Source: Prochloron didemni P4-Papua_New_Guinea
GTDB lineage: Bacteria > Cyanobacteriota > Cyanobacteriia > Cyanobacteriales > Prochloraceae
NCBI GenBank assembly: GCA_000252485.1
Contig: JH610637.1
Location: forward strand, 1-35,345
Direction: 5' to 3'
Length of the DNA stretch: 35,345 nt
In this document: positions 3,054 to 34,303 of the stretch, piece after piece
Layout: the number at the start of each line of letters is the position of its first letter
How positions within the stretch are numbered: position 1 is the first letter of the stretch
Notes under the pieces: generated by a model
The model's database searches: none
The model's input: only the letters and a program-made list of their open reading frames with translations
What the model was told of the DNA's origin: nothing
Translations under genes and position numbers: made by a program

Positions 3054-5264
3054 TCATCTGCGTTCATCTGCGTTTATCTGTGGTTTAACAATCCCACCGA
3101 AATCCGCTAAAACCCGAGCATGATTTCGCAGCAAAGCCAAAAGATTGAGACGATTGCGACGAACATCTTCATTTTCCGCCATCACTAAAACGCTATTTTC
3201 CCCATCAAAAAACTCCGTCACCATAGGAGCTGCAGTTTTCAAACCATCTACTAATAATTGATAATTTCGCTGTTGTTGCGCTTTTTTAGTTTGAGGCAAT
3301 AACTGCAGCAATGCTTGGTAAAAAGCTGCTTCCGAAGACTTCTCAAATAACTCCTTATTCACTACAATGTCTGGGTTTAATTCTTCCGTTCCCAAATCAC
3401 CCTGTTTCCCTAAACGAGTGGAACGATTTACTGTCTCGTATATTTGAGCCAAAATCCCATTCTGACGAATCTCTTGGAGGAAAAGAGCGCGATCGCGCAC
3501 GTCCAACAAATCCTTTATAGCTCTTTCCCCATACTCCGGGTCATCTTCCGCTAAAACTGCATTGACTAAATCGTAATCTATGCCTAATTCATCTTGAAGT
3601 AAAGTGCGAATTCTTTGGATAAAGAATAGGGACAAAGATGAAACGAGAGGTTGTTTGTTTTGTTGTTTGTTGTTGGTTGTTTGTTGTTCGTTGTTTGTTG
3701 TTTGTTGTTTGTTGTTGGCAGTAACAAAATCTTGGCTAATCTGTTGGATAATCTCTCCTAAATTAATTCCCAAGTTAGCTTGCCAAGTAATATTAATTAC
3801 GGCATTTGCTGCCCGTCGCAAAGCAAAGGGATCGGAAGAACCGGTGGGAATCATTCCCAAACCGAAAATACTGGTGAGCGTGTCCAACCTATCGGCCAAA
3901 CCTACTACTTGTCCCCCTAGAGTTTCCGGCATTATATCCCCAGCTCCCCGAGGCAAATAATGCTCGAAAATACCCTTGGCTACTGCTTCAGATTCCCCAC
4001 TTACTAAAGCGTATTTTTCTCCCATTACTCCTTGTAATTCTGGGAACTCGTCAACCATTTGAGTGACCAAGTCAGCCTTGCACAATAAACCTACTCTCTC
4101 TACTAGAGATTTTTCTTCTTCTGCCAAATTTAATTGTTTGACAATTTGGGCGGCAATAGTTATTAAGCGATTTACCTTATCCTTCATGGAACCCAAATCT
4201 TCTTGAAAAGTAACCTTTTCCAACTGAGGTAAATAGCTTTCTAAATGCTGCTTGCAGTCTGCTTGGTAGAAAAAGCGACCATCTGCCAATCTGGCTCGAA
4301 TTACTCTTTCGTTACCGGCAGCAATAATATCTGCTTTGGCTGGATCGCCGTTAGCAATGGTGATAAAATACGGCAATAACTGTTGGTTCTTTTTAACCGG
4401 AAAATAGCGCTGGTGAGTTACCATGACAGTGGTAATTACTTCTTCTGGCAAACTCAAGAATTCTGGGTCGAACTTACCCGCTACTGCGGTGGGCCATTCT
4501 ACTAAATTAGTTACTTCCGCTAATAAGTCGGGGTATACTTCTGCTTTTCCTCCCAAGGACTCCCCTACTGCTTCTATTTGTTGCTCAATTACTTGTCGTC
4601 TTTTTTCGGGGTCAACATTAATATAAGCGGACTGGAGAGATGATAAATAATCTCCCGCTTGCGCAATAGTTATTGCTTCTGGATGTAAAACTCGGTGTCC
4701 GGAAGAAAGGCGATCGCTCTTTACCGCAATAGAACCGTTCACTAATTCTAAGGGCAGTACTTCCCCATCCCACAATGCTATGAGAGAGCGAATCGGTCGG
4801 GGAAAGCGGAAGTCTCCATCTCCCCAACGCATGAACCGCTTTCCTTCCAGGCGATCGATCCATTGCCGACTCAATTTTTCTACAATATCCTTACCTTGCC
4901 GTCCGGGAATTTGTTTCTGAATAAAGACAAAATCTCCCTTGGGAGTAGGACGCACCTCCAGCGTCTCTACCGCAACACCCTGCTTGCGAGCAAAACCTTG
5001 GGCTGCCTTTGTGGGTTCCCCGTCTTTAAAAGCTGCTTTAGCTGGAGGGCCTTTGATTTCCTCTTCCCGATCCGGTTGTTTGTCTGGGAGTCCTCGGATT
5101 AAAACCGCCAGACGGCGGGGACTGCCATATACTTCCACCGCTTCTGGGGTCAGGTATTGTTCTGCTAGGGTTTGGGGAATGAGCGATTTCCATTGGGCGA
5201 TCGCCCCTGCAATGAAGTCTACCGGTAATTCTTCCGTACCTACTTCTAACAAATAGTTAGCCAT
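3054..5264 (-). CDS. glyS: Glycyl-tRNA synthetase beta subunit
   Basis: Beta chain of the bacterial alpha2beta2 glycyl-tRNA synthetase, which charges tRNA-Gly in the cytoplasm. The N-terminus [13 protein letters not shown] is the family signature, and the motif [19 protein letters not shown] and the C-terminal anticodon-binding region are present. At 736 residues it is slightly long for the family. About 23 residues (516-538) are an asparagine/glutamine-rich heptapeptide repeat (NNKQQTT) made by an in-frame STRR. The last ten residues (PQINADERR) and the stop lie inside a dispersed CATCTGCGTT repeat. The alpha subunit gene is not in the window. The likely Shine-Dalgarno AAGGAG lies about 35 bases upstream of the ATG, separated from it by another STRR. 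Confidence 0.96.
3651..3717. repeat. In-frame STRR (TTGTTTG type) inside glyS
   Basis: A run of TTGTTTG / TTGTTGG / TTGTTCG heptamers. Three heptamers equal seven codons, so the array is read as a heptapeptide repeat NNKQQTT without breaking the frame. The same type of array lies just before lpxB (15038-15127). Confidence 0.9.
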
Positions 5265-10408: not shown

Positions 10409-11311
10409 TTAATTGGGGATAATCTCCACTGAGAACGGTGTTTGTTGTTTAATACCAGCTAGGGCTGCTTGCATTTCTGGAGTATTGAGAAATCTTTCTG
10501 TATCTTTTAGCAGGCGATCGCCCCAAAGATTTTCTTTGAGAAACTCTAATTCCTGATAGCGAATATCGGTGGATAAAGCCTTTTGGCCTAAAGCCAAACC
10601 TTTGTCTTTTTCCCCTTGAGTATAGAGAGCTACTGCTACTGCTAACATTGGCTCTGCTGCTTCATTCTCAATGTCCAGAGCTGTTTGCCAATCGGTGATC
10701 GCTCCTGCTATATCTCCTTGTTCGTATTTAACCAAGCCAATATTATTAATTGCCGGCCAAAATTCCTCCTGACCCTGGTCAAATGCTTTTTCATAGTTGC
10801 CGAGCGCTTTGCCATGTTTTTCCAGCCTAAAATAGGAATTACCCAAGTCAAACAAAGCTTCTGGGGTGTTAGGCTCTAACTTCAATCCCGCTTCCAATTC
10901 TTCTACAGCAGCGTTATAATTTTCTTGACGAAAATAGGCAGAACCCAGAGTAAAGAAAATAGTTGCTTTTTCTTCTTTAGGAGCAAGGAGTTTAGCCCGT
11001 CGCAACGCCGCAATTCCTGCTTCTAAATCTTCTTGTTGAACTGATAGAGTTCCCAAAATCAACCAACCTCGATAAAAATGGGGAACTAATCGAGTTCCCA
11101 GCTTGGCGTAGGGCACTGCTAATTGATATTGTTGGAATTGCGCTAGTTGGATCGAATCCTGAAGCAACTCAAAACCTTGTTCTTCCAGCTTGTCTCCATC
11201 CCAGTCCAAGGTATAGGGAAGGAGTGCTTGAGAAGCTCCTGGTTTAGCTATAATGCAAGATAGACCTACAGAAGCCAGAATAGAAATAAACCAATTGTAC
11301 TTATTTTGCAT
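10409..11311 (-). CDS. Secreted/lumenal tetratricopeptide repeat protein
   Basis: 300 residues from the ATG at 11311, which has GAGG ten bases upstream; the longer TTG start at 11326 overlaps that site and is not preferred. The N-terminus has a signal peptide (positively charged MQNKYNW, a hydrophobic ILASVGLSCIIA core, and a likely cleavage near GASQA). Five or six TPR motifs follow (for example ATIFFTLGSAYFRQENYNAA and PEALFDLGNSYFRLEKHG-type helices), so the protein is a binding scaffold in the periplasm or thylakoid lumen. The partner is unknown. Confidence 0.8.
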   Translation of the reverse strand: MQNKYNWFISILASVGLSCIIAKPGASQALLPYTLDWDGDKLEEQGFELLQDSIQLAQFQQYQLAVPYAKLGTRLVPHFYRGWLILGTLSVQQEDLEAGIAALRRAKLLAPKEEKATIFFTLGSAYFRQENYNAAVEELEAGLKLEPNTPEALFDLGNSYFRLEKHGKALGNYEKAFDQGQEEFWPAINNIGLVKYEQGDIAGAITDWQTALDIENEAAEPMLAVAVALYTQGEKDKGLALGQKALSTDIRYQELEFLKENLWGDRLLKDTERFLNTPEMQAALAGIKQQTPFSVEIIPN

Positions 11312-11611
11312 TTTTAGTCGCCTCAAAATTACTAATTTACTAATGAGAGGAATAGAGAATACCGATCACTGTAACTTCAATAGTGTGGATTGATTTTTAG
11401 TTCCCAGTTATTTATATATACTATTATATAGCAGAAGTGTTGAATTGTGACTCATTACCTGACTCTCTGACAACTATGTCCGCAAGCCTTAGCTAGCAAG
11501 GATTACAACTCAAAACAATTAGCTCAAATGTCCGCAAGATTTGCCAATAATCTATCCATTTGTTTACTAGCTTTTGAAAAAAATTCGCCTGATCACCTTG
11601 ATATCCCATAG
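11312..11611. other. Gene-free region upstream of the TPR gene
   Basis: AT-rich, with no gene. Two direct copies of ATGTCCGCAAG lie at 11476-11486 and 11528-11538. The sequence starting TGTTGAATTG at 11438 resembles 5341-5366. These may be remnants of a mobile element or integration site. Confidence 0.5.
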
Positions 11612-11880
11612 GTTTGCTAAAATAAGAGATCAACAAATAAAAAGAAAAACCTTGGCTTACGATTAGCTGTTCTAAAAGCTGCTGAATTTCTGCGATCGCT
11701 GCGAAGCAGATCTCTGCGGGATCGCCCTTCGGATCAAGTAAAGCGATGGCTTACTGTACCTCATTCGGAGGAGAAACGCTAGATATCATTTTTTGCTGAA
11801 TATGTCAATTCCCTAATAGAATTCCAAATCCTACCCTATACCAGCCATTGTTATCTGATTATCCGTCTCTGGGAAGGCTC
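11612..11880 (+). pseudogene. Eroded Rpn-family gene remnant
   Basis: The segment 11612-11663 matches the leader and first four codons (TTG GCT TAC GAT) of the Rpn-family gene at 12023, but the fifth codon is a stop (11664-11666). After unrelated palindromic sequence, 11808-11875 resumes homology to two separate parts of that gene: the E-F-Q-x-L-P-Y region (near 12200) joined directly to the SHSYRVIRLWE region (near 12370). It is therefore a copy with a nonsense codon and internal deletions. Confidence 0.7.
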
Positions 11881-11949
11881 TTCGCTCCGAGGAGCGAAGA
11901 GCCCACCCAGTCTGCTCGCGTAGCGATCCGCTCCGCGGTGCGCTACGCG
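11876..11949. repeat. Two strong palindromic elements
   Basis: The first hairpin has 13-bp perfect arms (11876-11888 and 11891-11903) and a 2-base loop. The second has 9-bp arms CGCGTAGCG / CGCTACGCG (11917-11925 and 11941-11949). They are GC-rich and embedded between decayed Rpn copies, resembling cyanobacterial REP-like palindromes. Confidence 0.75.
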
Positions 11950-12022
11950 CCGCTCTTAGCGATCGCCTCGAACTCGCACAGACTTGCTAAGATAAGAAAG
12001 AAACAACTAACAAAGGAAAACC

Positions 12023-12899
12023 TTGGCTTACGATAACACCTGTAAATACCTGGCGGAAACCTACGCAACCAGTTTTATCCGCTGGCTGCTGGACGAAGAA
12101 GCAGAAAATGTCTCTATCTTAAAGACAGAAATAATTCCGGAACCCATACGAGCGGATGCCCTGATACTGGTACGAACGGACAAAAAAATCACCCAGATAG
12201 AATTCCAAACCCTACCCTATTCAAAGCCACCTATTCCTTATCGACAGCTAGTAATACTGGACTCTACTGTACGGACAATATTGGTGTGAAATCGAACAAA
12301 TTGTTATTTTCTTACAAGAAACTAACTCCGAACAAGTGTTCCAAAATAAATTTTCAGAGCAAAATACCAGCCATTCTTATCGGGTTATCCGTCTCTGGGA
12401 AGAAGACCCCGCTCCCTTCTTAGCTGACCCAGCCTTGCTACCTCTAGCTACTTTAACCCGCAGTAAGGAACCGAAAATTTTGTTAGAGCAAGTAGCAGAA
12501 GAAGTAGCTAAACTAGAAGATACCCAGCAAAAAAGAAGTATATCAGCTGCAGCAGAAGTGCTAGCAGGTTTGCGATTTGAAAAAAATGTAATTCGTCAAA
12601 TATTTCGGGAGGAACTAATGGAAGGTTCGGTTATTTATCAAGATATCCTGCAAAAGGGAATTACTCAAGGAGAACAAAAAGGTTTGCAGCAAGGCTTGCA
12701 GCAAGGGGAACAAAGAGGTTTGCAGCAAGGAGAAGCAAATGTATTAATTCGTTTAATATCTCGACGCTTTGCTACTATCGCCCCTACTGTAGAGGAAAAA
12801 ATTCGTTCTTTATCCATTTCCCAATTAGAAGAGTTAACGGAGGCACAATTTAATTTCACTACAAGTGAAGATTTAATTGCTTGGCTAGATCAGAAATAG
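12023..12899 (+). pseudogene. Frameshifted Rpn-family nuclease gene with DUF4351-like C-terminus
   Basis: Member of the large cyanobacterial Rpn family. It starts at TTG (M-A-Y-D-N-T-C-K-Y) with AAAGGAAAA upstream, as is usual for this family. The PD-(D/E)XK-like core has IRADALIL and IEFQTLP. One extra base around 12251-12254 shifts the frame, so the first frame stops at 12289. The second frame continues without loss of homology (YWCEIEQ, then VFQNKFSEQNTSHSYRVIRLWEEDP) to 12899. The C-terminal module has QQG-rich repeats followed by a helical DUF4351-like domain ending LIAWLDQK. An in-frame ATG at 12618 with GGGAGGAAC just upstream could still give a 93-residue C-terminal product. Whether the shift is real or a sequencing error cannot be told here. 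Confidence 0.85.
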
Positions 12900-12978
12900 T
12901 AGCCAAAATCTGGAAGGCGATCTTTTTAGATCGCCCAGACTTGCTAAGATAAGAAATAAACAAAGAAGAAAGAAAACA

Positions 12979-13287
12979 TTGGCTAATGTAATTCGTCAAT
13001 TATTTCGGGAGGAACTAATGGAAGGTTCGGTTATTTATCAAGATATCCTACAAAAGGGAATTACTCAAGGAGAACAAAGAGGTTTGCAGCAAGGTTTGCA
13101 GCAAGGAGAACAACTTGGAACAGCTGGAGTATTAATTCGCTTATTATCTCGACGTTTTGCTACTATCCCCCCTACTGTAGAGGAAAAAATTCGTTCTTTA
13201 TCCATTTCCCAATTAGAAGAGTTAACGGAGGCTCAATTTGATTTCACCACCAGTGAAGATTTAATTGCTTGGCTAGATCAGAAATAG
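12979..13287 (+). CDS. Rpn C-terminal minigene (internal-deletion paralogue)
   Basis: 102 codons starting at TTG (M-A-N-V-I-R-Q). The 40-bp leader and the TTG-GCT start are copies of those of the gene at 12023, joined in frame to a point near codon 190 of that gene. The nuclease domain is therefore deleted and only the QQG linker and DUF4351-like helical domain remain. The internal GGGAGGAAC-TA-ATG (ATG at 13018) is preserved and could start an 89-residue form. It may act as a non-catalytic regulator of a full-length Rpn protein, or be a decaying copy. The frame is fully open. Confidence 0.6.
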   Translation: MANVIRQLFREELMEGSVIYQDILQKGITQGEQRGLQQGLQQGEQLGTAGVLIRLLSRRFATIPPTVEEKIRSLSISQLEELTEAQFDFTTSEDLIAWLDQK

Positions 13288-13333
13288 TAGCCAAAATCTG
13301 GAAGGTGATCGCTAAATATTTCGGGAGGAACTA

Positions 13334-13615
13334 ATGGAAGGTTCGGTTATTTATCAAGATATCCTGCAAAAGGGAATTACTCAAGGAGAACAAAGAGGTT
13401 TGCAGCAAGGCTTACAGCAAGGGAAACAAAGAGGTTTACAACAAGGAGAAGCAAAAGTCTTAATTCGTTTAATATCTCGACGTTTTGGCTCAATATCCCC
13501 TACTGTAGAGGAAAAAATTCGTTCCTTATCCATTTCCCAATTAGAAGAGTTAACGGAGGCACAATTTAATTTCACTACAAGTGAAGATTTAATTGCTTGG
13601 TTGGATAAGAACTAG
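13334..13615 (+). CDS. Rpn C-terminal minigene, second copy
   Basis: 93 residues starting at the ATG preceded by GGGAGGAAC. Homology to the upstream copies begins only at about 13314, so this copy consists of the internal ribosome-binding site plus the C-terminal module: MEGSVIYQDILQKG, QQG repeats, a VLIRLISRRF helix and the LIAWLDKN end. Repeat number in the QQG linker differs between copies. It has no nuclease core. It could be an antitoxin-like short form or a remnant; the open frame and intact ribosome-binding site favour translation. Confidence 0.55.
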   Translation: MEGSVIYQDILQKGITQGEQRGLQQGLQQGKQRGLQQGEAKVLIRLISRRFGSISPTVEEKIRSLSISQLEELTEAQFNFTTSEDLIAWLDKN

Positions 13616-13704
13616 CAATGTATTAATTAATATGAAATGTAAAAATATTTGCTACAAATAGTGGCGTTACATCGTAGTATAGATTGAGGTTATTCCGTAG
13701 GTTG

Positions 13705-13769
13705 AGAAACCGGGTTTCTTTCCAAAATTTAGCATTAATCCTTAAAATAATAGAAGAAACCCGGTTTCT
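13705..13769. repeat. AGAAACC palindrome pair
   Basis: Two near-identical 15-base elements, AGAAACCGGGTTTCT at 13705-13719 and AGAAACCCGGTTTCT at 13755-13769, one the inverse complement of the other. They can form one long hairpin or two small ones. They may help terminate the converging transcripts. Confidence 0.75.
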
Positions 13770-13800
13770 TGGCTGACTAATCCACATTTTTAGATTTGAT

Positions 13801-13860
13801 ATAACCACAGAGACGCAGAGGACACAGAGAAGAAAAGAGAATAGAGTTTAGAGTTTAGAG
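13801..13860. repeat. CACAGAGACGCAGAGG dispersed repeat
   Basis: A copy of the CGCAGAG-type dispersed repeat also present at 2947-2990, followed by GAGTTTA heptamers (about 13845-13860), about 30 bp downstream of the lpxB stop. Confidence 0.65.
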
Positions 13861-13891
13861 CAAATCATTAATGAATTATTTAATATCAAAC

Positions 13892-15037
13892 CTAAGAAAC
13901 CAAATCAATAATTGCTTTCGCTGCCCGATCGCAGACCCCAACTTCTCCCAAACCCTCTTTCATTTCCTCATAATCCCTCAACATTTGCTCCCGTCTATCC
14001 CGATTAAATAACAATTCCCAAGACTCAGCCACAATTCTGTCCGGAGTTGCTTCTTCTTGAAGCAATTCCGGTACAATAGATTTCATCAGCACTAAATTCG
14101 GGGGCGACATAAAAGAAATAGAAAACTTTAATACTTTCCGCGCAATCCAAATAGTGGCGGGATTAACCCGATATAAAACTACTTGAGGAACCTTCAATAA
14201 AGCAATTTCCAAATTAACCGTACCAGACTTAGAAATTGCTAAATCCGCAGCAGCGATTATCTCCTTAGTTTTCCCCTCTAAAAGGGTTGCTTGCAAACCA
14301 TATTCCTCCACCATTGCTGCAATTTTATCCCTATAAGTAGGTAAAGAAATAGGAATGAAAAAACGAACATTTGGCAACTTTGCTTGTAATTGTTGCGCCG
14401 CACTACAAATAACCGGAAGGAGATATTGTATTTCCTGCTGGCGAGAGGCTGGTAAAAGAGCGATGGCCAACTGGTCTTTTCCAATCCCCAATTCTGTTCT
14501 GGCAAACTCCCGCGTCGGTGCAGTGGCCATCCTATCAACTAAAGGATGACCTACCCAATTTACATTACCCCCCAGAGCTTGAAAATAACGCGCCTCTTCT
14601 GGAAAAATAGCTAACAGGCGATCGCTTATTTTAACTACCGATTTAGCTGTACTGGTATTGGGAGACCAAACCCAATTTTGAGGCGCAATGTAGTAAACTA
14701 TCGGTACTTGAGGTAAATATTTACGGAGGTAGCTACCGAGACTTAAATTAAGCGCTGGATAGTCAATGAATACCACCGCATCCGGTGGATTTTCACGCAA
14801 ATATTTCTTAGCACGACGTTGGTGGAGAAAAGTAGGCCAAATAAAAGGGAGGGATTCTACTAATCCCACGGAACCAATAGCCGCAGTTTGACCCAGAAGA
14901 GTAGCCCCAGCGGCAGCCATGCGATCGCCCCCCAAAGCCACTATTTCTAAATCATTATTGAGGCGTTTCAAGGCTGTAATTAACAATGCTCCTTGCAAAT
15001 CCCCAGAAACTTCACCCGTACTAATAAATATTTTCAT
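13892..15037 (-). CDS. lpxB: Lipid-A-disaccharide synthase
   Basis: GT19 glycosyltransferase joining UDP-2,3-diacylglucosamine to lipid X to form the lipid A disaccharide, a peripheral inner-membrane enzyme. 381 residues, the normal length. The N-terminal STGEVSGDLQG signature, VVFIDYPALNL, IVYYIAPQNWVWS and the C-terminal AISKSGTVNLEIAL motif are present. It is the last gene of the envelope cluster, separated from lpxA by a toxin-antitoxin module. The ATG is immediately preceded by a long CAACAAA-type STRR instead of a Shine-Dalgarno, which may affect translation. Confidence 0.96.
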   Translation of the reverse strand: MKIFISTGEVSGDLQGALLITALKRLNNDLEIVALGGDRMAAAGATLLGQTAAIGSVGLVESLPFIWPTFLHQRRAKKYLRENPPDAVVFIDYPALNLSLGSYLRKYLPQVPIVYYIAPQNWVWSPNTSTAKSVVKISDRLLAIFPEEARYFQALGGNVNWVGHPLVDRMATAPTREFARTELGIGKDQLAIALLPASRQQEIQYLLPVICSAAQQLQAKLPNVRFFIPISLPTYRDKIAAMVEEYGLQATLLEGKTKEIIAAADLAISKSGTVNLEIALLKVPQVVLYRVNPATIWIARKVLKFSISFMSPPNLVLMKSIVPELLQEEATPDRIVAESWELLFNRDRREQMLRDYEEMKEGLGEVGVCDRAAKAIIDLVS

Positions 15038-15127
15038 TAGTTGTTTGTTGTTTGTTGTTTGTTGTTTGTTGTTTGTTGTTTGTTGTTATTGGTTGTTTGA
15101 TTTGTTCGTTATTGGTTATTGGTTATT
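15038..15127. repeat. STRR abutting the lpxB start codon
   Basis: TTGTTTG heptamers (15040-15088), then degenerate TTATTGG units. Three bases separate the array from the lpxB ATG, so it fills the place where a ribosome-binding site would lie. Confidence 0.9.
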
Positions 15128-32054: not shown

Positions 32055-32765
32055 TTAAGATCTAGTTTTTTCAAAATATTGTAACTGAGTCAGGAGCTTA
32101 GAAGACTGCTTTTGACCACAGCGATAGATGCTGGTGGTACACTGGGAGGCAAGAAACTGTTGAAAGAATAATTGTTTCCTGGTGGATTGTTCAATATATT
32201 GTTTCCTTTCTTGCTTATTGTTCTTAAACCCATCTTCGATTATGTTGAATATTCTATAGATGTCCACATCTACAAGGGCAGCAACAATAAACAAAACCTG
32301 TGCTAAAGTCCAACTAATTATATTGGCAGTTATCCAGCCAGTAGCTTTTTTCAAGAACTTGATTAAAACAACCTTTTGGGCTATACTAAGAAAAATTCCT
32401 GGTACAGCTACGCTCAAAAAAGAAGCAAGCTGCAAGCTTGTTAGGCTTAACAAACCAACTATTAAACCGCCTAAAGTTCCACCTAAAATGCTAAATTGTA
32501 TCCACAAAATCGGTTGTTTAACTTGCCCAATCAAAGCAAGTGTTTGGCCAAAACCAATTGAAGTTCCAATTATAAAATTTACTAGGGTAAATAATATCAG
32601 AGTAGTTAAATTACCAAGTGAACCACCATCCGATGCTGCTAAGCCAACAACAAACAAAACTCCCACAATAAAAGGACTTCCTACGGTACAACCGATAGCA
32701 GTTGCTACTGTCCATCTCAGTAGAAAAAGCCATTCCTTTCTCCTAAATCCCATATACTTGAGCAT
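32055..32765 (-). CDS. Tandem membrane protein, copy 1 (altered C-terminus)
   Basis: 236 residues, start MLKYMG with GGGAGG upstream. The first ~165 residues match copies 2 and 3: KEWLFLLRWTVATA, four hydrophobic segments, and a G-F-G-Q-T-L-A-L-I-G type repeat again as S-I-A-Q-K-V-V-L-I, typical of uncharacterised cyanobacterial membrane proteins. After residue ~170 the paralogy ends and a polar, Gln/Lys-rich tail (NNKQERKQYIEQ) replaces the last two membrane segments. It is probably a copy whose 3' end was replaced by recombination. Function unknown. Confidence 0.65.
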   Translation of the reverse strand: MLKYMGFRRKEWLFLLRWTVATAIGCTVGSPFIVGVLFVVGLAASDGGSLGNLTTLILFTLVNFIIGTSIGFGQTLALIGQVKQPILWIQFSILGGTLGGLIVGLLSLTSLQLASFLSVAVPGIFLSIAQKVVLIKFLKKATGWITANIISWTLAQVLFIVAALVDVDIYRIFNIIEDGFKNNKQERKQYIEQSTRKQLFFQQFLASQCTTSIYRCGQKQSSKLLTQLQYFEKTRS

Positions 32766-32810
32766 TGTTCTTACCTCCCAATAAAATTGGCCAAAGCCAA
32801 AAGATTTGGT

Positions 32811-32838
32811 GTTGGGTTTCGCTATCGCTTAACCCAAC
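32811..32838. repeat. GTTGGGTT/AACCCAAC inverted repeat between membrane copies 1 and 2
   Basis: Eight-base arms around TCGCTATCGCT-like loop; an identical element lies at 33603-33630 between copies 2 and 3. It is part of the amplified unit and related to the repeat at 31068-31145. Confidence 0.7.
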
Positions 32839-32849
32839 CTACAATTGCT

Positions 32850-32912
32850 ATCCACTATCCACTATCAACTATCCACTATCCACTATCAACTATCCACTAT
32901 CCACTATCCACT
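32850..32912. repeat. STRR supplying the stop codon of membrane copy 2
   Basis: Tandem ATCCACT / ATCAACT heptamers. On the minus strand the TAG stop of the upstream gene (copy 2) is the first heptamer (TAGTGGA). The same arrangement recurs at 33641-33706 for copy 3. Confidence 0.85.
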
Positions 32913-33558
32913 ATTCTTTCTTGAAGTTTTTCAACAACCAGGTAAGATTAATACCCGTAATCAAACTTATTACAGCTACACTAGCGAAAATTATAATTAG
33001 GTCAATAAATAGGGCGAATGATAACCCATCTCCGATTCTGTTTAATATTCTATAGGGGTCCATATTTACAAGGCCAGCAGGAAACACAACCTGTGCTAAA
33101 GTCCAAGTAATTATATTGGCAATTATCCAGCCAGTAGCTTTTTTCAAGAACTTGATTAAAACAACCTTTTGGGCTGTGCCAAGAAAAATTCCTGGCACAG
33201 CTACGCTCAAAACAAAAGCAAGCTGCAAGCTTGTTAGGCTTACCAAACCAACTAGGAAACCGCCTAAAGTTCCACCGAAGATGCTGACTGGTAGCCACAA
33301 AATGGATTGTTTAGCTTGACCAATCAAAGCAAGTGTTTGGCCAAAACCAATTGAAGCTCCAATTATCAAACCTATTATGGTAAATAATATTAGATCAGCT
33401 AAATCACCAAGTGGATAACCATCCGATGCTCCTAAGCCAAGAATGATAATAACTCCCACAATAAACGGACTTCCTACGGTAAAACCCATAGCAGTTGCTA
33501 CTGTCCATCTCAGTAGAAAAAGCCATTCCTTTCTCCTAAATCCCATATACTTGCTCAT
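32911..33558 (-). CDS. Tandem membrane protein, copy 2
   Basis: 215 residues, start MSKYMGFRRKEWLFLLRW, with GGGAGG ribosome-binding site. About six predicted membrane segments; two internal G-x-G/A-Q-x-x-x-L repeats (GFGQTLALIG and GTAQKVVLIK), each followed by a W-containing segment. Complete C-terminal segment VISLITGINLTWLLKNFKKE. The stop lies at the edge of an STRR. Paralogous to its neighbours; the unit spacing is 793 bp to copy 1 and 745 bp to copy 3. Function unknown. Confidence 0.75.
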   Translation of the reverse strand: MSKYMGFRRKEWLFLLRWTVATAMGFTVGSPFIVGVIIILGLGASDGYPLGDLADLILFTIIGLIIGASIGFGQTLALIGQAKQSILWLPVSIFGGTLGGFLVGLVSLTSLQLAFVLSVAVPGIFLGTAQKVVLIKFLKKATGWIIANIITWTLAQVVFPAGLVNMDPYRILNRIGDGLSFALFIDLIIIFASVAVISLITGINLTWLLKNFKKE

Positions 33559-33640
33559 TGTTCTTACCTCCCAATAAAATTGGCCAAAGCCAAAAGATTT
33601 GGTGTTGGGTTTCGCTATCGCTTAACCCAACCTACAATTG

Positions 33641-33706
33641 CTATCAACTATCCACTATCAACTATCCACTATCAACTATCCACTATCAACTATCCACTAT
33701 CCACTA
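33641..33706. repeat. STRR supplying the stop codon of membrane copy 3
   Basis: ATCAACT / ATCCACT heptamers directly adjoining, and providing, the TAG stop of the gene at 33704-34303. Homologous to the array at 32850-32912. Confidence 0.85.
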
Positions 33707-34303
33707 TTCTTTCTTGAAGTTTTTCAACAACCAGGTAAGATTAATACCCGTAATCAACCCGATTACAGCTCCACTAGCTAAAAATATAATTAGTCTATTA
33801 CCATCCATATTTGCACGGCCAGCAAGAAGCAAAACCTGTGCGAAGGTCCAACTAATTATATTGGCAATTACCCAGCCAGTAGCTTTTTTCAAGAACTTGA
33901 TTAAAACAACCTTTTGGGCAATGCCAAGAAAAATTCCTGGCATAGCTAGACTCAAAAGAAAAGCAAGCTGAAAGCTTGTTAGGCTTACCAAACCAACTAG
34001 GAAACCGCCTAAAGTTCCACCTACGCTGCTGACTGGTAGCCACAAAACCGGTTGTTTAACTTGCCCAATCAAAGCAAGTGTTTGGCCAAAACCAATTGAA
34101 GTTCCAATTATAAAATTTACTAGGGTAAATAATATCAGAGTAGTTAAATTACCAAGTGAACCACCATCCGATGCTGCTAAGCCAACAACAAACAAAACTC
34201 CCACAATAAAAGGACTTCCTACAGTACAACCCATAGCAGTTGCTACCGTCCATCTCAGTAGAAAAAGCCATTCCTTTCTCCTAAATCCCATATACTTGCT
34301 CAT
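33704..34303 (-). CDS. Tandem membrane protein, copy 3
   Basis: 199 residues, the shortest copy: it lacks about 16 residues (corresponding to YRILNRIGDGLSFALF of copy 2) between two late membrane segments. Otherwise it is close to copies 1 and 2, with the same start, GGAGG ribosome-binding site and C-terminal LTWLLKNFKKE. About five or six membrane segments. It is probably the first transcribed of the three. Function unknown. Confidence 0.75.
   Translation of the reverse strand: MSKYMGFRRKEWLFLLRWTVATAMGCTVGSPFIVGVLFVVGLAASDGGSLGNLTTLILFTLVNFIIGTSIGFGQTLALIGQVKQPVLWLPVSSVGGTLGGFLVGLVSLTSFQLAFLLSLAMPGIFLGIAQKVVLIKFLKKATGWVIANIISWTFAQVLLLAGRANMDGNRLIIFLASGAVIGLITGINLTWLLKNFKKE

Follow-up and report, generated by a model that had tools for sequence, protein, structure and literature searches.

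The window is a stretch of 35,345 nucleotides of Prochloron didemni contig C172, one of the 690 contigs in the assembly, of which positions 10800-14400 were read together with the list of open reading frames and a repeat search. In this region a C-terminal module occurs three times (12618-12899, 13018-13287 and 13334-13615), each time behind CGGGAGGAACTA-ATG and each time carrying the PF14261/DUF4351 domain (E 2e-18 to 4e-20). The repeat search places the C-terminal copies at 12593-12892, 12981-13280 and 13309-13608; CGGGAGGAACTAATG begins at 12606, 13006 and 13322, the ATG codons follow at 12618, 13018 and 13334, and the open frames end at 12899, 13287 and 13615. A sequence-only reading of this DNA had described four Rpn-family copies in a row and had placed an internal Shine-Dalgarno (SD) sequence and start codon in the last three. 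The three start coordinates are correct, with GGGAGGAACTA-ATG ahead of each, and the first copy is indeed eroded, but it does not bear the key part of the array: it lacks the C-terminal module and is therefore a remnant. The features of the array are listed below.

11604..11882, + strand: copy 1, remnant of an rpn gene with 5' leader, TTG start, immediate stop and two N-domain scraps (repeat search, parent alignment)
11974..12022, + strand: 5' leader of copy 2, CAGACTTGCTAAGATAAGA..., with the TANNNT-like hexamer TAAGAT (repeat search; putative promoter)
12023..12289, + strand: copy 2, nuclease N-terminal frame from TTG, 88 aa, frameshifted (open reading frame list, parent alignment)
12606..12620, + strand: copy 2, internal SD and ATG, CGGGAGGAACTAATG (sequence; conserved in relatives)
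12618..12899, + strand: copy 2, C-terminal module, 93 aa, 5 helix tetrads, DUF4351 (open reading frame list, domain search)
12931..12978, + strand: 5' leader of copy 3 (repeat search)
12979..13287, + strand: copy 3, stand-alone short gene, parental TTG (12979) fused in frame to NVIRQLFREELM (open reading frame list, domain search)
13334..13615, + strand: copy 4, stand-alone short gene, 93 aa, 5 tetrads, SD at 13322-13333 (open reading frame list, domain search)

In copy 1 the leader is kept, TTGGCTTACGAT is directly followed by a stop, and the two N-domain scraps lie at 11811-11839 and 11838-11876. The leader of copy 2 is common to copies 1 and 3 and to genes on contig C120 of the same genome, and its TAAGAT hexamer is a guess at a -10 box. 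Alignment with two intact parents bears out the frameshift that had been read in the nuclease domain of copy 2, which consists of one extra base at about 12250-12256; the TTG-initiated frame therefore stops at 12289, past the putative catalytic D and E-x-Q residues and short of the remaining domain. Copies 3 and 4 lack the nuclease domain, as had been noticed. Copy 3 retains the parental TTG in frame and has its internal SD/ATG at 13006-13020 (ATG at 13018), from which 89 aa with 4 tetrads are encoded, while the TTG is absent from copy 4, where parental homology begins about 20-25 nt upstream of the ATG. A hairpin, GGCGATCTTTTTAGATCGCC, lies ahead of the copy 3 leader at about 12917-12936; the stability of this intergenic region is unremarkable (z -1.6) and no T-run stands behind the hairpin, and for these reasons it is not called a terminator.

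The same genome contains 33 copies of DUF4351 and 13 members of the array's own DNA family, with two intact copies of the parent on contig C120 and one on C689. In the direction of transcription, C120 carries two short genes, a full-length gene, three short genes and a second full-length gene. In four of these five short genes the parental leader CAGACTTGCTAAGATAAGA is joined straight to GGAGG(A/G)ACTN-ATG, the TTG start and the entire nuclease domain being gone, and the fifth lies directly behind an unrelated gene; one C120 short ends 5 codons early. The TAAGAT hexamer stands so near the SD in the C120 shorts that transcription starting from it would trim the SD. Five junction types are present in the genome, all of which keep 10-34 nt of parental sequence 5' of the ATG, and the upstream coding sequence open to junctions amounts to roughly 594 nt.

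The long form is assigned by its sequence to the Rpn nuclease family, with a PD-(D/E)XK-type motif. The Rpn family model TIGR01784 matches 40 of the 58 full-length relatives (best E 2e-18) and the C120 parent with E 9e-10, which is below the curated cut-off, and residues D45 and E60-F-Q62 are nearly invariant in the N-domain. Fold comparison of the long form weakly points to PD-(D/E)XK enzymes, the best match in BFVD being a PD-(D/E)XK nuclease (E 0.012) and several top matches in the PDB belonging to such enzymes (Cap4, EcoO109I and Kpn2I, E 0.14 or higher). AlphaFold models the tail (pLDDT 93) as one helix of 50 residues (2-51) with three short helices after it, an arrangement that would be in keeping with the RpnAS fold without proving it. 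The tail model found no significant structure match in the PDB, the PDB sequence search gave no match, and between the DUF4351 tail and E. coli RpnA there was neither a profile match nor detectable sequence similarity. Matches of the short proteins to FliH and to a ‘putative invertase’ fall mainly on the Q/G-rich repeat helix and were set aside as apparently compositional. The system probably works like an Rpn system and is probably one.

Internally translated Rpn antitoxins have been shown in E. coli by Zhong et al. 2023 (PMC10327210), and stand-alone RpnS genes were also reported, including ypaA behind rpnE and DUF4351-annotated genes in some species (PMC10327210); both are thus already known. 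The cyanobacterial genes resemble E. coli RpnL/RpnS in having a long form of the Rpn nuclease family, a strong SD/ATG inside the gene where the tail begins, a first helix with hypervariable 4-residue repeats, and stand-alone shorts behind the long gene (rpnE-ypaA and rpnC-rpnCS in E. coli). They differ in that the tail is DUF4351, as many as five shorts, of several repeat lengths, stand together in an array, and the nuclease in the window is broken. The Pfam entry for PF14261/DUF4351, the domain found in all the C-terminal copies, is silent on function and on an internal start. The E. coli K-12 rpnE-ypaA locus shares the layout, in that a full gene is followed after 12 nt by the ATG of a tail-only gene with a strong SD ahead of it, but the locus has a single short gene, which is annotated as a pseudogene in RefSeq. 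At that locus, AAAAGGAGAGATTAATG precedes ypaA (L240:2817-3002), whose frame is open throughout and which exceeds the RpnE tail by one tetrad (KLEG). In the open-licence literature, no paper on short Rpn forms of cyanobacteria was found; new here are the multi-copy arrays of shorts, the evolutionary evidence for the start in cyanobacteria, and the finding that neighbours usually differ in helix-repeat number.

An SD inside a coding sequence may be a by-product of the encoded peptide, in this case REE(L/I)M, with no internal start at all, and the peptide itself is conserved. Codon usage contradicts this explanation. The internal Met is ATG in all 44 nonredundant full-length relatives, and the Glu at -3, whose codon makes GAGGA, is encoded by GAG in 39 of the 40 Glu-bearing genes among the cyanobacterial full-length relatives, in which GAA is otherwise usual: GAG accounts for 31% of all Glu codons of the same genes, for at most 46% at any other conserved Glu column, and for 13% at the Glu directly after the -3 position, which is mostly GAA. 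In a second set, which omits four loci drawn by the SD pattern, the codon is GAG in 13 of 13 genes with this Glu, and among three genes with another residue at -3, two are without SD, one of them from the G294 lineage, and one, the full-length relative L218, has Lys in place of the Glu and through the codon choice AAG-GAA retains AAGGA ahead of the ATG. Furthermore, the SD marks the beginning of many mini-genes, which are preceded by unrelated sequence, and altogether the by-product explanation is highly improbable. Searched over the class, a strict GGAGGAA pattern matches 5 of 291 genomes; it needs GG before AGG and so misses AGAGGAA, and the loci it drew are those omitted from the second codon set.

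The predicted SD duplex energies agree with the codons. At the internal ATG of the 44 full-length relatives the mean is -7.9 kcal/mol, compared with -4.3 after resampling of synonymous codons and -2.5 at other internal ATGs of the same genes, and the value lies below the gene's own synonymous-null mean in 44 of 44 cases. The internal start therefore survived the check, proposed in the sequence-only reading, for conservation beyond codon constraint. Evidence from synonymous sites thus shows a hidden, putative Rpn start maintained by selection across cyanobacteria, and at the sequence level the full-length genes possess a predicted ribosome-binding site and start codon for the tail. The duplex at the internal site reaches -10.3, whereas three of the four parental starts tested are weak (0.1 at both C120 TTG starts, -1.1 in C689 and -5.8 in copy 2 of the window), and more short than long protein is therefore predicted. 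More short than long Rpn protein was measured in E. coli (PMC10327210).

That the array consists of separate short-form genes had been proposed from the window by itself; the proposal is right and also general, given the larger array with intact parents in the same genome and the recurrence of tail-only genes across cyanobacteria. The module is present in 106 of 120 sampled genomes of the same order, and among the matches listed for this sample, frames of 135 aa or less occur in at least 14 genomes besides the Prochloron one. In many records from Nostocales and Oscillatoriales a full-length gene is followed at a distance of 8-204 nt by a tail-only frame; there are also orphan shorts, with no nuclease domain in the flanking sequence available, and orthologous arrays were not found among the three genomes of the genus and family. 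In the tree of the module, short and full-length copies are interleaved, with 25 label changes of which at least 13 are forced by well-supported branches, and the labels showed no clustering against shuffles; this interleaving argues for a repeated origin of shorts from local full-length genes. Of 50 shorts from all loci, 19 have the end of parental homology no more than 15 nt from the ATG and 38 no more than 45 nt, an edge pile-up that is limited but not produced by the definition of shorts as having fewer than 60 codons of open frame before the ATG. The SD energy is -5 kcal/mol or lower in 42 of the 50. Such mini-genes are natural experiments, in which evolution repeatedly turned a gene within a gene into an independent one. 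Another family of the order contains an independent array (L221, G294:C25:22600-25800), in which three tail-only copies, arranged as 350-bp units, come after one full gene and the internal ATG lacks an SD.

Tandem duplication is known to give rise to rpn arrays (PMC10327210), and the shorts might be functionless debris, decaying tandem duplicates of which the tail is merely what remains, as the erosion of copy 1, the frameshift of copy 2, the early stop in one C120 short and the several ‘part’ fragments that occur in relatives would suggest. The frames of the shorts are nevertheless open and their dN/dS, for which a value near 1 had been named as evidence against function, is well below 1: about 0.14 for the window copies, 0.23 for shorts against the long form of the same locus (18 pairs), 0.40 for Okeania shorts and 0.42 for orthologous shorts of Nostoc and Dolichospermum, all computed with the repeat region left out and with part of the divergence possibly predating the loss of the nuclease domain. 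Among the changes seen in only one short of the Prochloron genome, 9 are synonymous and 8 nonsynonymous, against a neutral ratio of 1:3.5. Gene conversion likely weakens the dN/dS and substitution figures and leaves the codon test untouched. Debris would also not be expected to have 5' edges that pile up just upstream of the SD, an SD conserved at synonymous sites, and births that recur in many lineages, and we consider it an unlikely explanation.

The sequences themselves reveal the start site, the fact that it is conserved and used again as the boundary of mini-genes, the purifying selection and the variation in repeat length, and the array is likely a cluster of stand-alone RpnS-like short genes derived from a gene-within-gene Rpn toxin-antitoxin, the tails of which most likely hold RpnL inactive. 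In the mechanism proposed, the parent would make a long PD-(D/E)XK nuclease (RpnL) from its weak TTG start, while translation from the strong internal SD/ATG would yield a short tail protein composed of a long helix of 4-residue repeats and DUF4351. A deletion or duplication whose 5' boundary falls shortly before the internal SD would then free the tail as its own gene. Tail proteins would most likely pair with RpnL through the repeat helix and keep this presumably toxic nuclease inactive, and the pair might serve in phage defence. Because the sole nuclease copy in the window is frameshifted, the locus would supply short forms alone, and these may act in trans on Rpn proteins encoded elsewhere (e.g. 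on C120 and C689) or on incoming ones.

The antitoxin role of the shorts is suggested by analogy with E. coli. Counting against it, the tetrad number of a stand-alone short is often not that of the long form next to it, and the G294/L221 lineage is without the SD. The dissimilarity of the DUF4351 tail to RpnA, the lack of significant PDB matches for either model and the early end of one C120 short likewise speak against the overall reading. Moreover, a short protein could be translated and yet be a partner subunit assembling with RpnL, as Cas11 from cas10/cas8 does. Small subunits made from internal in-frame starts exist, such as Cas11d, produced from within cas10d (cited in PMC10327210), which differs from RpnS in being a partner subunit rather than an inhibitor and is an unrelated protein. 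No sequence feature separates a partner from an inhibitor; nevertheless, the same arrangement together with the tetrad hallmark is an antitoxin in E. coli (PMC10327210), and a partner subunit is the rather less probable role, with a small chance of being correct.

The inhibitory reading, with its pairing through the repeat helix, turns attention to the helix itself. Hypervariable 4-residue repeats are the RpnS hallmark (PMC10327210), expected 8-20 residues past the Met of the short form, and here tetrads (LQQG, EQRG, KQEG) form a run from about residue 14, between this Met and DUF4351. Differences in helix length are multiples of 4 in 238 of 240 pairs of full-length genes, and the number of tetrads ranges from 4 to 7 within the Prochloron genome. 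Outside this genome, tandem neighbours differ in tetrad number in 30 of 34 adjacent pairs, compared with 15 of 29 when nearest full-length genes from different genomes are paired (Fisher p 0.002, the pairs not being independent). The K-12 pair rpnE-ypaA fits this pattern. The mismatch between neighbours is suggestive, and unequal exchange within the tandem repeats could be an alternative cause of it.

In E. coli, one extra repeat abolished inhibition between RpnC forms (PMC10327210), and on that account a stand-alone short may fit another Rpn protein rather than its neighbour. The arrays thereby raise a question of specificity, namely whether the number of helix repeats decides which short silences which nuclease. 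Tentatively, arrays of shorts with graded tetrads (4 to 7 in one genome) could constitute an antitoxin repertoire, in which helix length would set partner specificity, differing tetrads would insulate neighbours, and extra shorts would neutralise other or incoming Rpn toxins instead of the adjacent one; this possibility is worth stating, albeit doubtful. The shorts could also be mainly gene-conversion donors that reshuffle the helix length of full-length genes. Mosaic helix ends (EANVL vs EQLGTASVL) are common to C120 shorts and full genes, and neighbours differ in tetrad number, but the retention of SD, ATG and leader at the shorts is left unexplained by such a role, which is very unlikely.

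Other repeated structures occur in the window. A second, different Rpn-family gene of the DUF2887 type (TIGR01784 E 8.5e-27) lies on the minus strand at 1783-2556, followed by a partial copy without the N-terminal part, the whole region covering 1358-2556. The last piece of the partial copy is a 48-aa open frame (1358-1504, MEGQIEGQINAKMEAVPGLLKLG...) that is nearly equal to the parent tail; this tail-only short differs from its parent in the 4-residue repeats and is without a good SD. Also on the minus strand, at 32055-34303, a gene for a predicted membrane protein is present in three tandem copies, which share about 90% identity over 300 nt; two of the junctions carry heptamer repeats (CTATCCA/CTATCAA). 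Finally, a heptamer repeat of the GTTGTTT/AAACAAC type encodes a 22-residue insert at 3650-3716, inside the glyS frame (3054-5264), and the same type of heptamer is also found at 15040-15087.
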